Shown piece by piece: positions 41,242 through 45,131 of a DNA stretch of 64,000 nucleotides. Made by a program: the position numbers and the translations under genes. The stretch covers positions 124,001-188,000 of the forward strand of contig NZ_JACZCQ010000003.1 in assembly GCF_014904705.1 (NCBI RefSeq), in the 5' to 3' direction. Origin of the DNA: Nisaea sediminum. Lineage in GTDB: Bacteria > Pseudomonadota > Alphaproteobacteria > Thalassobaculales > Thalassobaculaceae. Under the pieces are notes generated by a model. The model worked only from the letters and a program-made list of their open reading frames with translations, searched no databases and was not told where the DNA came from. Position 1 is the first letter of the stretch; each line of letters starts with the position of its first letter.

Positions 41242-41703
41242 ATGACGGTCGAGAGCGAAATTCGGGACCGCCCCTACTGGAAATCCACGCCGCTCGAGGA
41301 AATGAGCGGCGAGCAGTGGGAAGCACTCTGCGACGGCTGTGGAAAATGCTGTCTGGTGAAGCTGATCGACGATGTGACCGACGAGCTGCATTACACGGAC
41401 GTCGCCTGCAGGCTGCTCGACTGCCATTCCTGCCGCTGCAAGGATTACCCGAACCGAAAGGCCAAGGTGCCGGATTGCGTGATCCTGACGCCGAAACTTC
41501 TCGAGGATCTCGTCTGGATGCCCTCGACCTGCGCCTACCGGCTGGTCAAGGAAGGCAAGGACCTGCCGTTCTGGCATCCTCTCGTCTGCGGCGATCCCGA
41601 GATGGTGCACGAAGCCGGGATTTCGGTCCGGGGACGCGCCGTCTCGGAGGATCTGGTGCCGGACGAGCAACTTATAGAACACATCGTCGAATGGGCCGAA
41701 TGA
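41242..41703 (+). CDS. ycgN: YcgN family cysteine cluster protein (UPF0260)
   Basis: A 153-residue protein with the cysteine cluster CDGCGKCC near its N-terminus, then further Cys in [17 protein letters not shown] and in STCAYR and LVCGDP. This is the complete YcgN pattern, a putative metal-binding cluster of unknown function. It begins one base after the hydrolase stop (ATG 41242), so the two are in one transcript. A short membrane protein follows. Confidence 0.92.
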
Positions 41704-41777: not shown

Positions 41778-41969
41778 ATGAGCCGAGGCATGTGGATACT
41801 GGCCGCGCTACTGGCCGTGATCGCAATGGCGACGATCTATCAGGAGGAGTTCGGCGGCGGCGTCGACCGGCCATGGGCGGCCTGCAAGGAAAGCATGGTC
41901 CAGCAATGGCTTTCCGGGAACTGCACCCCCAGGGACGGCGCGCAGATCAATATCCAGCCGCAAAATTGA
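41778..41969 (+). CDS. Small single-pass membrane protein
   Basis: A 63-residue protein with one hydrophobic helix (MWILAALLAVIAMATIY) near the N-terminus and a short soluble tail with two Cys. ATG 41778 follows AAGGGGG with normal spacing. The same frame also opens at ATG 41700, which overlaps the ycgN stop as ATGA and would add 26 residues. It is soluble on one side only; function unknown. It lies just before the Zur-box operon but is separated from it by the palindrome. Confidence 0.55.
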   Translation: MSRGMWILAALLAVIAMATIYQEEFGGGVDRPWAACKESMVQQWLSGNCTPRDGAQINIQPQN

Positions 41970-42000
41970 ACCTGGAGCATCGATAGTATCTGGTGAAGTT

Positions 42001-42028
42001 AATTTGTTATGTTATAACATCTCAAATT
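42001..42028. promoter_or_regulatory. Zur-type palindromic operator
   Basis: A perfect 12-bp palindrome ATGTTATAACAT (42009-42020) sits inside a longer symmetric site: AATTTG at 42001-42006 mirrors CAAATT at 42023-42028. Twenty-four of 28 positions are symmetric. This matches the Zur zinc-repressor site of alphaproteobacteria as I know it. It ends 27 bp before ATG 42056, where a bound repressor would block the operon promoter. Confidence 0.75.
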
Positions 42029-42055
42029 CAACTCACCGCTCCCGGAGCTCCGAAG

Positions 42056-42595
42056 ATGATCCGTTCCGCATCAGCCGCCGTTCTGCTTGCCGCCCTGGCC
42101 GCCTCACCCGCCGCCGCGAGCGAAACCCGTTCCTCCAGCGCCCATGAACATGGTCATGGACAGCTCAATATCGCTATCGAAGGCAACAGCGTGCTGATGG
42201 AGCTCGAAATCCCCGGTGCGGATATCGTTGGCTTCGAGCATGAAGCGAAATCCGACGCCGACAAGGCCGCAATGACCGACGCAGAGAAGAAGCTGAAGGA
42301 CGGCGCCGCGCTGTTCCATTTCCAAGGGGCCACCTGCACTTTCGCGCAGGCACAGGTCGAAGACGGTCACGAGGATCACGGCAAGCAGCCCGCCGCGCAG
42401 GAGGAGCAGCATTCCGAATTCCACGTGGCCTACGAGATTTCCTGCGACGACGCCTCCAGGCTCACCGGAATCGAGTTCCCCTTCTTCGCCGTCTTTCCGC
42501 ATAGCGAGGAGCTCGACGTGACGGTCCTCGGCGCGCAAGGTCAGTTCAAGTATGAGGTGGAGCGCGATACGCCTATGCTCCCCCTTAAGAACTGA
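42056..42595 (+). CDS. ZrgA-like secreted His-rich metal-binding protein (DUF2796)
   Basis: From ATG 42056 behind GGAG, a 179-residue precursor has a clear Sec signal (VLLAALAASPAAA) and then a His-rich start (SAHEHGHGQ) and a second His/Glu-rich loop (DGHEDHGKQ, EEQHSEFH). The DUF2796 core is present (LEIPGADIVGFEHEA; VAYEISC; EFPFFAVFPHSEELDV). DUF2796 proteins include ZrgA of the Vibrio zrgABCDE zinc-regulated uptake cluster. A Zur-type site lies just upstream, so it should be made in zinc starvation and bind zinc in the periplasm. It leads the operon to 45131. Confidence 0.85.
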   Translation: MIRSASAAVLLAALAASPAAASETRSSSAHEHGHGQLNIAIEGNSVLMELEIPGADIVGFEHEAKSDADKAAMTDAEKKLKDGAALFHFQGATCTFAQAQVEDGHEDHGKQPAAQEEQHSEFHVAYEISCDDASRLTGIEFPFFAVFPHSEELDVTVLGAQGQFKYEVERDTPMLPLKN

Positions 42596-42618
42596 ACTTC
42601 TCTATCCCGGAACGAACC

Positions 42619-43338
42619 GTGGCAGCCCCCCAACTCCGACCAGACGACAGCTCGCCTGCGATTGCCCTCTCGGGTGTGCAATTCGAATGGAAAGGGACCG
42701 GCTTTCGGGTCGCCGTCGACGCGTTCCAGGTTGCACGGGGGGAGCGGGTTCTGCTGCTCGGCCCGTCCGGCGACGGCAAGTCGACCCTGCTGGGCCTGAT
42801 TTGCGGGATCTCGACGCCGGCCGAGGGGAAGATCGAGATCCTCGGCACGGATCTCGCGGCCCTCTCATCGGCGCGGCGCGACCGTTTCCGGGCGGAGCAT
42901 ATCGGCGTGATCTTCCAGATGTTCAATCTGCTTCCCTATGCCTCGGCACTGGAGAATGTGCGCCTCGGCCTTGCCTTCGCTCCCGGACGCGCCCGCCGCG
43001 CAGGCGGGGATGCGGACGCCGCCGACGAGTTGCTGACCCGTCTCGACCTCCCGGAAGGCAAGATGCGGCTCCGCCCGGCCTCCGGTCTCAGCACCGGCCA
43101 GCAGCAGCGTGTCGCCGCCGCCCGCGCTTTGATCGGCGGTCCGGAGCTCATCGTCGCGGACGAACCGACCTCGGCGCTGGACGGCGCCAGCCAGGAGCGT
43201 TTCCTGGACTTGCTCTTCGCGCAACTCGACAGGCTCGGCGCGAGCCTGCTGATGGTGAGCCACGACGAACGCCTTGCACCGCGCTTCGACCGCGTCGTCC
43301 GCACGACCGACGTTCTCAGAACGGAGGCAGCGGCGTGA
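42619..43338 (+). CDS. ABC transporter ATP-binding protein (MacB/LolD type)
   Basis: A 239-residue ATPase starting at GTG 42619. Walker A is GPSGDGKST (48-56), the Q-loop is in IFQMFNLLPY, the ABC signature LSTGQQQRVAAARAL is complete, and Walker B is LIVADEPTSALDG. The type fits the MacB/LolD branch that partners FtsX-like permeases. The stop overlaps the permease start (GTGA). As the second gene of the Zur-box operon it powers the metal-linked machine. Confidence 0.92.
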   Translation: MAAPQLRPDDSSPAIALSGVQFEWKGTGFRVAVDAFQVARGERVLLLGPSGDGKSTLLGLICGISTPAEGKIEILGTDLAALSSARRDRFRAEHIGVIFQMFNLLPYASALENVRLGLAFAPGRARRAGGDADAADELLTRLDLPEGKMRLRPASGLSTGQQQRVAAARALIGGPELIVADEPTSALDGASQERFLDLLFAQLDRLGASLLMVSHDERLAPRFDRVVRTTDVLRTEAAA

Positions 43339-44594
43339 TTCTGCTGAGACTCACTGGACGCTCCATGGCCAACAGGTGGGCGACCGCATTGCTTACCGTG
43401 CTCGCTCTCGCGGTCAGCATCGCGCTGTTTCTCGGCGTGGAACGGGTTCGGACCGGGGCCCGCGCCAGTTTCGGCAATACCATATCCGGCACCGACCTGA
43501 TCGTCGGTGCGCGCAGCGGCGGTGTGCAGCTCATGCTCTATTCCGTGTTTCGGATCGGCAACGCCACCAACAACATGACCTGGGAGAGCTACCGGGACAT
43601 CGCGCGGCAGCCGGAGGTCGCCTGGACCGTACCGCTCTCCCTCGGCGACAGCCATCGCGGCTTTCGCGTACTCGGCACCACGGAGGCCTATTTCGAGCAT
43701 TACCGCTTCCGCGGCGGCAGGAAGCTCACGATGCGGGCTGGCGAACCCTTCTCGGACCTGTTTGACGCAACCCTCGGCGCGGACGTGGCAGAGGCGCTCG
43801 GCTACAAGGTCGGCGATCCGATCGTCGTCGCGCACGGGCTTGGCGCGATCGGCTTCAGCCGGCACGAGGACATGCCGTTCCGGGTCTCGGGTATTCTCGA
43901 GAAGACCGGCACGCCGGTCGACCGGACAGTACATGTCAGCCTCGCCGCGATCGAGGCGATCCATGTCGACTGGCAGAGCGGCGCCCGCATCCCGGGTCAG
44001 TCGACCGGGGCCGACGCGGTCCGGCAGATCGATCTGACTCCGAAATCGATCACCGCGGCTCTGGTCGGCGTGACCTCGAAACTGAAGACCTTCAAGCTGC
44101 AGCGCTTCATCAACGATTACCCGGAAGAACCGCTGCTCGCCGTGCTGCCGGGCGTCGCGCTGCAGGAGCTCTGGTCGCTCATCGGCGTTGCCGAGACCGC
44201 GCTCGCAGGTGTGTCCGCGATGGTCGTGCTGACCGCCGTCATCGGCATGGTCGCGGCCATTCTTTCCAGCCTTGCAGAACGGCGCCGGGAAATGGCGATC
44301 CTGCGGTCGGTCGGCGCCGGCCCCGGCACGATCGCGCTGCTGACCGTGCTCGAAGCCACCCTTCTCTCGCTCGCCGGCGCCGTTACGGGAACCGCCCTAT
44401 TCCTTGCCGGGCTGGGGATCGCCGGACCGTTGGCGGACGAGGCCTTCGGGCTCTACCTGCCCTTCACGCTTCCGACCGCGCGCGAAGTGGCGATCTTGGG
44501 AATATTCGTTCTCGCTGGTATCGTTGCAGGGCTGTTTCCTGCCCTGCGCGCATACCGGATATCTCTCGCGGACGGCATGACGATCCGGCAATAG
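43335..44594 (+). CDS. FtsX/MacB-type ABC permease
   Basis: GTG 43335 overlaps the ATPase stop and follows GGAGG seven bases upstream, giving 419 residues. An N-terminal membrane helix (ATALLTVLALAVSIALFLGV) is followed by a MacB periplasmic-core domain and then three C-terminal helices with the FtsX-type RREMAILRSVGA loop between them. Such permeases act as mechanical transducers more than as channels and need a periplasmic partner; the ZrgA-like protein is the likely one. The operon position supports zinc-responsive metal handling. Confidence 0.9.
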   Translation: MILLRLTGRSMANRWATALLTVLALAVSIALFLGVERVRTGARASFGNTISGTDLIVGARSGGVQLMLYSVFRIGNATNNMTWESYRDIARQPEVAWTVPLSLGDSHRGFRVLGTTEAYFEHYRFRGGRKLTMRAGEPFSDLFDATLGADVAEALGYKVGDPIVVAHGLGAIGFSRHEDMPFRVSGILEKTGTPVDRTVHVSLAAIEAIHVDWQSGARIPGQSTGADAVRQIDLTPKSITAALVGVTSKLKTFKLQRFINDYPEEPLLAVLPGVALQELWSLIGVAETALAGVSAMVVLTAVIGMVAAILSSLAERRREMAILRSVGAGPGTIALLTVLEATLLSLAGAVTGTALFLAGLGIAGPLADEAFGLYLPFTLPTAREVAILGIFVLAGIVAGLFPALRAYRISLADGMTIRQ

Positions 44595-44603
44595 GAGGCT
44601 GGT

Positions 44604-45131
44604 GTGAGCGACTCTTTCGTTATCTCCCGTAGAACTTTCCTCGCGGCCGCAGGGTCTCTTGCAGCGGCGGGCGCGCTTTCTGCCGGCGCCAGAGCGTCGG
44701 AGACACCGCGCGACATTCTCTGGGAAGACCTCATACCGAACGCCGACGAGCGCCTCCAGGCGACGATGAACCGCCTGGGTGTGGTCCAGCATGGCGGGGT
44801 CCCAGCGCAGACCAGCGACGATTACGGCAAGGATCTGGTGAAGGAGCTGATCGGCCAGAACATCCGCATCGCCGGCTACATCATCCCTCTCGACTATGAC
44901 GGCGTCGGGGTGAAGGAACTGATCCTGGTGCCCTATGTCGGCGCCTGCATCCACGTGCCGCCGCCACCGCCGAACCAGCTCATCCTCGTGCGCACGGAAC
45001 AGCCCTACGATCCGCGGGAGATGTTCGAACCGGTGTATGTCGCCGGTACGCTCGGCATCCTGAACGAGACGAACGATCTGGCGGAAGTCGGCTATTCCCT
45101 GCAGGCCGACTCGATCGAGCCCTACCAATAG
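44604..45131 (+). CDS. Tat-exported DUF3299 protein
   Basis: GTG 44604 lies just after AGGAGG. The 175-residue precursor has a twin-arginine signal (SRRTFLAAAG) followed by an Ala-rich segment, and the mature part shows DUF3299: QNIRIAGYIIPLDYDG, LILVPYVGACIHVPPPPPNQ and a final VGYSLQADSIEPY. DUF3299 genes are found with zinc-regulated ZrgA-type systems. The Cys-x-His in ACIHVP is a likely metal-binding feature. It is the last gene of the operon, exported folded to the periplasm. Confidence 0.85.
   Translation: MSDSFVISRRTFLAAAGSLAAAGALSAGARASETPRDILWEDLIPNADERLQATMNRLGVVQHGGVPAQTSDDYGKDLVKELIGQNIRIAGYIIPLDYDGVGVKELILVPYVGACIHVPPPPPNQLILVRTEQPYDPREMFEPVYVAGTLGILNETNDLAEVGYSLQADSIEPYQ

Follow-up and report, generated by a model that had tools for sequence, protein, structure and literature searches.

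What does a MacB-like permease move when it is encoded in an operon made during zinc starvation? The question is raised by four adjacent forward-strand genes of the alphaproteobacterium Nisaea sediminum, which lie in the 64,000-nucleotide stretch analyzed here (contig NZ_JACZCQ010000003.1, positions 124,001 to 188,000; hereafter the window, with positions counted from its first letter). The genes encode a secreted zinc-binding protein of the DUF2796/ZrgA family, an ATP-binding cassette (ABC) ATPase, a MacB/FtsX-type permease, and a DUF3299 protein, and they are preceded by a palindrome that resembles a binding site of the zinc regulator Zur. The operon is orthologous to the already published Zrg or PA4063-PA4066 zinc-starvation system, of which it is an alphaproteobacterial member; the annotation is sound. 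It probably encodes a Zrg-type zinc-acquisition system, and it bears on which cargo the MacB-like Zrg permease carries.

Operon and Zur-type site

The palindrome (AATTTGTTATGTTA/TAACATCTCAAATT) occupies 28 bp at 42001..42028 and has no strand of its own. By eye, 12 of its 14 arm pairs are complementary, and a repeat finder stretches it to 41992-42037 at 78%. It contains the core ATGTTATAACAT at 42009-42020 and the 15-bp register TGTTATGTTATAACA at 42005-42019. The palindrome ends 27 bp upstream of the ATG of zrgA (42056..42595; 179 aa), which is followed by the genes for the ABC ATPase (42619..43338; 239 aa), the permease (43335..44594; 419 aa), and the DUF3299 protein (44604..45131; 175 aa). 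The GTG start of the permease gene overlaps the stop of the ATPase gene, and the DUF3299 gene begins with a GTG 9 bp past the permease end. On checking the sequence, the palindrome with its perfect core, the 27-bp spacing, the four genes, and their close or overlapping junctions were all found as the sequence-only reading had described them.

Within the window the core is unique even when up to 2 mismatches are allowed (chance expectation 0.13), and 12 of 100 shuffled windows hold at least one match at that tolerance. Genome-wide, the pattern TGTTATNNNATAACA with at most 1 mismatch occurs at six sites, as compared with none for the reversed pattern. Four of the six precede genes expected in a zinc regulon, namely zrgA, znuA, a CobW-type GTPase gene (COG0523), and a porin gene. 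At the GTPase gene (locus L020) the longest possible frame includes the site, which is upstream only if translation begins further in; the start of the protein leads us to judge that it does. The porin gene (PF13609) has a perfect Zur-type site ahead of it (2979-2993 of locus L016), which suggests that this porin may be zinc regulated. The other two sites, one inside a reading frame (L017) and one before a phage integrase gene (L018), are taken as chance matches.

The site is also retained among relatives. All five genomes of the genus carry zrgA, and in each of them the 15-bp site lies about 35-40 bases ahead of the likely zrgA start (with 0, 1, 2, 2, and 2 mismatches). For a wider comparison, named genomes were scanned with a ZrgA alignment; 320 loci were confirmed and the best 80 of these, alphaproteobacterial by title with Nisaea species nearest, were used, such that counts out of 80 describe the nearest relatives. 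Scoring covered the DNA ahead of each unit's first gene, and agreement at 10 or more of 12 bases was called a site; 77 promoters were usable, and three loci with fewer than 200 bases upstream were left out. Of the 80 loci, 42 have a same-strand Fur-family match no more than 700 bases ahead of zrgA (three of these matches were confirmed with Pfam), and the other 38 do not. Sites were found at 27 of 39 usable loci with such a match and 17 of 38 without, as compared with 0.7 and 0.2 in shuffled DNA, giving a total of 44/77 zrg promoters against 0.9 in the shuffles. When the stretch directly before zrgA was scored instead, 20 of 78 loci reached at least 10/12 (1.0 in shuffles), two loci in which the start motif was absent being left out. 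The genome-wide, window-shuffle, genus, and promoter counts together rule out the palindrome as a chance match.

The genome of N. sediminum has three Fur-family genes. One of them is found some 30 kb past the operon; the genes after it, identified by reading, encode a ZnuC-like ATPase and another GTPase of the CobW-like kind, and because of these neighbors the Fur-family gene is taken as zur. Control of the operon by Zur, as the sequence-only reading had proposed, is supported at the level of sequence by the occurrence of the motif also at the promoters of znuA, the CobW-type GTPase gene, and the porin gene and by its recurrence at 44 of 77 zrg promoters. A lack of conservation of the palindrome ahead of homologous operons, which would have counted against that reading, was not observed, and the site is kept in all five genus genomes.

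Shortly upstream of the palindrome lie a CxxCxxCC (PF03692) gene at 41242-41703 and, just before the palindrome, a 63-aa reading frame without a Pfam match (41778-41969). The end of this small frame is recognizable by eye ahead of the site in all five genus genomes.

The Zrg proteins

ZrgA, encoded beside the ABC genes, matches PF10986 at 1.4e-45, above the family cut-off, and scores 142.9 bits against the NCBIfam ZrgA equivalog model, under its curated cut-off of 185 bits. The protein holds the motif HEHGHG and a loop rich in His, Glu, and Asp. Its relatives of solved structure are PA4063 (7ahw) and 8ezw (titled "zinc-binding protein"), which we take to be ZrgA of Vibrio cholerae. His30, His32, and Glu61 align to the HxH and E described as site-1 ligands (PMC9820375), and these three residues and His119 are invariant in all 32 aligned sequences that remained after a 75% coverage filter.

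The ATPase matches ABC_tran (PF00005) at 2e-29. Its nearest models are LolD, DevA, YbbA, FtsE, and MacB; LolD is the best NCBIfam model, and LolD, DevA, and YbbA all score below cut-off. The permease matches both MacB_PCD (3.2e-13) and FtsX (1.5e-15) in Pfam, and its sequence matches include LolF and YtrF. An AlphaFold2 model of the permease (mean pLDDT 79) has four long helices and a large periplasmic domain. In a Foldseek search the best match of this model is MacB (5gko, 2.1e-16), although the two structures superpose only loosely (TM 0.57 by query, rmsd 7.3); LolCDE, HrtBA, YbbAP, BceAB, and FtsEX rank below MacB. An ATPase paired with a four-helix permease that has a MacB-type periplasmic domain is thus present, as in the Zrg or PA4063-PA4066 operon.

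Four permease histidines (His107, His167, His177, and His210), all in the segment that separates the first long helix from the second, are unchanged in 75/75 alphaproteobacterial sequences (that of the window and those of 74 loci passing the 75% coverage filter). Among 30 wider loci, 26 have a permease match and 23 cover all four histidines, and no covered position differs. In these wider loci the permease is better conserved than ZrgA (about 52-66% as compared with 27-43% identity). Between permease positions 40 and 213, five of six histidines are invariant in 25 wider sequences, as compared with 46 of all 174 positions (P = 0.005). None of three further MacB_PCD proteins encoded by N. sediminum (from four loci, two of which lie in one frame) has the four histidines at the aligned places, in an alignment that is weak. 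The conserved histidines hint at where in the permease zinc may be handled.

The DUF3299 protein (PF11736, 1.3e-37) matches 4hsp, the structure of PA4066, both by sequence (5.9e-27) and by fold (2.3e-13); its other fold matches are general OB-folds. Within its GACIHVPPPPPNQ motif, Cys115, His117, Asn124, and Gln125 are the same in 99/99 sequences. A frame with this motif is present in 8/8 regions from other classes, where the same motif was used to pick the frames. The N terminus has twin arginines, and the TAT_signal match is under the cut-off of that family. Among alphaproteobacterial DUF3299 proteins, 95/99 have two adjacent arginines within the first 40 residues and 73/99 fit a looser twin-arginine translocation (Tat) pattern. 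Seven of the eight proteins from other classes lack the arginine pair at the signal start, and the remaining one begins MRRLLF with no classic Tat motif by eye; these sequences rule out Tat export of DUF3299 as a general part of the mechanism. Of the 72 complete loci, 38 carry two adjacent DUF3299 genes (L038, L082, and L095 are examples).

Distribution and genomic context

ZrgA, ATPase, permease, and DUF3299 genes occur all together in 72 of the 80 nearest loci. Three loci have the ATPase and permease genes without a DUF3299 gene on the same strand nearby, and in five no ABC genes were seen; in L046 and L067 the end of the contig is reached. A permease relative was found in 11/11 genomes searched, which include that of N. 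sediminum and six without ABC genes seen beside zrgA. In a phylum sample of 398 genomes, 65 have a strong ZrgA match (at least 83 bits, picked by hand), 75 have the permease (E <= 1e-40, with at most four candidates scored per genome), and 64 have both; the permease is thus found in 64/65 genomes with a strong ZrgA. A 66th genome over the ZrgA family cut-off (G167) has a 31-bit match broken by stops. In a family sample ZrgA is present in 7 of 36 genomes, five of them from the genus.

Linkage to other zinc genes is seen in SAR11 (Pelagibacteraceae by title). All four SAR11 loci (L085, L086, L107, and L110) have znuA in reverse orientation beside the run znuC-znuB-zur-zrgA-ATPase-permease-DUF3299, where zur denotes the Fur-family gene and some of the families were checked by Pfam. 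Three of the four have a perfect site between znuA and znuC and another just before zrgA, and the fourth has neither; the three site-bearing loci are probably close kin, with identical site coordinates. This cluster suggests that Zrg is part of zinc acquisition in very abundant ocean bacteria. For SAR11, a Fur-family gene has been reported together with znuA and the remaining ABC genes, and zrg is not shown in the available part of that paper (PMC4771312); no wider literature search was made.

Other arrangements vary. One locus from another class brings together folE2, phosphoribosyl-AMP cyclohydrolase, CobW-type GTPase, Fur-family, zrgA, DUF3299, ATPase (by reading), and permease genes. In two loci of one genus (L140 and L141), the Fur-family gene, zrgA, and the DUF3299 gene adjoin a CobW-type gene without ABC genes, and the permease gene is found at another place, close to a second ZrgA match that is partial (families checked in one of the two). 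The DUF3299 proteins of L140 and L141 have, by eye, a lipoprotein-like start. Two further loci (L069 and L102) each have two Fur-family genes; the one beside zrgA matches the N. sediminum Zur weakly and the one beside znuC/znuB strongly, as though zrg were under a regulator of its own there.

What the permease may move

In the mechanism proposed here, zinc-loaded Zur on the palindrome would repress the operon, and a drop in zinc would lead to its expression. ZrgA would capture periplasmic zinc at its HxH...E...H site and deliver it to the MacB/Lol-type permease, at the periplasmic domain to which ATP hydrolysis by the cytoplasmic ATPase would be transmitted. The invariant permease histidines could help to take over or release the zinc, with more zinc in the cytoplasm as the outcome, and the DUF3299 protein may serve as a periplasmic accessory by docking on the permease or on ZrgA. 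Zinc would either cross the membrane through the permease or pass to another importer. We infer Zur binding, the docking steps, the direction of zinc, and the roles of the histidines and of DUF3299. Zinc import by the permease is an unproven mechanism that is contested in Pseudomonas aeruginosa, and the detailed mechanism, taken alone, is a real possibility, though somewhat less likely than not.

The contest arises from the proposal that PA4063-PA4066 exports pyochelin-cobalt (PMC11481552). Generalized, the ATPase and permease would export a metallophore or a metal complex, and zinc starvation would be merely the signal. Mutant, feeding, and metal-content data from P. aeruginosa favor such export (PMC11481552), as does MacB as the best fold match of the permease. 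Genes for nonribosomal peptide synthetases (NRPSs) also accompany the operon in some genomes: contig C10 of the N. sediminum genome (G000) carries NRPS genes at 89963-107352 with seven condensation-domain matches, and such matches occur in all five genus genomes (7 to 16 each) and in 2 of 10 other zrg genomes tested. However, the condensation domain was unmatched in 8 of the 15 genomes tested, including 4/4 SAR11 genomes (the completeness of these eight is not stated), and the pyochelin view is therefore unlikely to be general. No adaptor family was found among seven scanned proteins of the operon and its neighbors, the loci that were read link zrg to znu, zur, folE2, and CobW-type genes, and the growth defects of Vibrio zrgA deletions are curable by zinc (PMC9817125, PMC9820375). 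Metallophore export thus appears very unlikely as the function of the operon. A purely periplasmic role is somewhat easier to entertain, albeit still quite unlikely. The Zrg machine would strip zinc from periplasmic ligands and hand it to ZnuA, feeding ZnuABC without any import of its own. The zrg and znu genes are neighbors in SAR11 and in some other loci, and the permease fold matches MacB, LolCDE, and FtsEX. These three act on the periplasmic side rather than as importers, which counts in favor of a feeder.

Vibrio genetics speak against it: in V. cholerae without znuA, deletion of zrgA still impairs zinc-free growth (PMC9820375), and V. parahaemolyticus requires zrgA to grow fully in the absence of zinc while deletion of znuA alone has no effect (PMC9817125). 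On these data ZnuA is not needed for the benefit of ZrgA in Vibrio, where a pure feeder role for ZnuA is unlikely. Least probable of all, and by some distance improbable, is an envelope-service pump similar to LolCDE or DevA, which would move an envelope component when zinc enzymes fail, with ZrgA only as a zinc sensor. The LolD, DevA, and YbbA models nearest to the ATPase (all below cut-off) and the permease matches to LolF and YtrF by sequence, and to MacB and then LolCDE by fold, speak for such a pump; the co-occurrence of the permease with strong ZrgA in 64/65 genomes and the lack of the four histidines in the other MacB_PCD proteins of the genome (weakly aligned) argue against it.

Zinc handling is favored by the znu-zur-zrg cluster of SAR11, the eight operon genomes without an NRPS match, and the conserved permease histidines. 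Since pyochelin export probably does not apply generally and Vibrio genetics oppose a pure feeder, a zinc-handling mechanotransmission machine with a zinc-binding permease becomes the favored form. In its most specific version, Zrg would be a zinc-specific branch of the mechanotransmission ABC systems, in which His107, His167, His177, and His210 form a zinc site in the periplasmic domain of the permease; the permease would receive zinc from ZrgA and pass it on by ATP-driven movement of this domain; this version is tentative and, in all its particulars, rather unlikely to be right.

Several points weigh against a Zrg-type zinc-acquisition role. We know of no precedent for a four-helix MacB-type permease that imports an ion. 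The permease is generally well conserved (26% of the 174 positions compared are invariant), which makes the invariant histidines less striking, and in the model His167 and His177 lie within, and His210 near, low-confidence loops. The permease occurs without a strong ZrgA in 11 of the 398 phylum genomes. Zrg itself is patchy, with ZrgA over the cut-off in 18 of the 289 genomes of a class sample. Thirty-three of the 77 usable promoters have no site of at least 10/12 in the scored stretch; three of them belong to SAR11 loci whose perfect site lies closer to zrgA, past the Fur-family gene. When PA4065 was lost from a P. aeruginosa znuA zrmB mutant, zinc content did not change and cobalt rose in a pyochelin-dependent manner; the same loss also worsened low-zinc growth (PMC11481552).

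If the version with a zinc site in the permease is right, Zrg would be, to the authors' knowledge, the first MacB/Lol-type machine with a bare metal ion as cargo, and the streamlined SAR11 ocean bacteria would hold a single znu-zur-zrg zinc module. The invariant permease histidines provide a direct set of residues for testing.

Comparison with known systems

With ZnuABC the operon shares the type of regulator and the physiological signal, and the same kind of site precedes znuA in the N. sediminum genome. In contrast to ZnuABC, the operon has neither a ZnuA-type binding protein nor an ABC-3 permease; both families are found at another locus of the genome (L019). With MacB of the MacAB-TolC pump the permease shares the MacB_PCD periplasmic core and the FtsX-type membrane part, and MacB is its best fold match. 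It differs from MacB in that the ATPase is encoded by a separate gene (42619-43338) rather than being fused to the permease (43335-44594), and in the four histidines not seen, by weak alignment, in the three other MacB_PCD proteins of the genome. A MacA adaptor was absent among the seven scanned proteins of the operon and its neighbors, the rest of the genome not having been searched. The sequence-only reading regarded a MacB-type machine for zinc acquisition as little described. The resemblance of ZrgB to MacB, and a possible contact of its periplasmic domain with ZrgA, were noted in 2022 (PMC9820375), however, and in 2024 the ATPase and permease were modeled as a two-chain MacB (PMC11481552).

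The kinship with the Vibrio zrg cluster that had been proposed is borne out by the families of ZrgA, the ATPase, the permease, and DUF3299. The Vibrio zrgABCDE operon shares these four proteins and Zur control (predicted from sequence in N. sediminum) and shows a zinc phenotype, whereas no zrgD-type gene (DUF2607) lies between the genes here (PMC9817125, PMC9820375). Published Vibrionaceae zrg operons have mostly five genes and some have four (PMC9817125). A similarity network of ZrgA from 2020 already contained an alphaproteobacterial group, and 97% of those zrgA genes were reported to lie near ABC genes (PMC7731109). The compact four-gene form that the sequence-only reading had remarked on is likewise not new: PA4063-PA4066 of P. 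aeruginosa is a Zur-controlled operon of the same four kinds of genes in the same order, ZrgA-ATPase-permease-DUF3299 (PMC8561739, PMC11481552). The twin-arginine start of the DUF3299 protein distinguishes the N. sediminum operon from PA4063-PA4066, and the likeness between the two extends to structure, in that 7ahw and 4hsp, solved for PA4063 and PA4066 at either end of that operon, both match their counterparts here.

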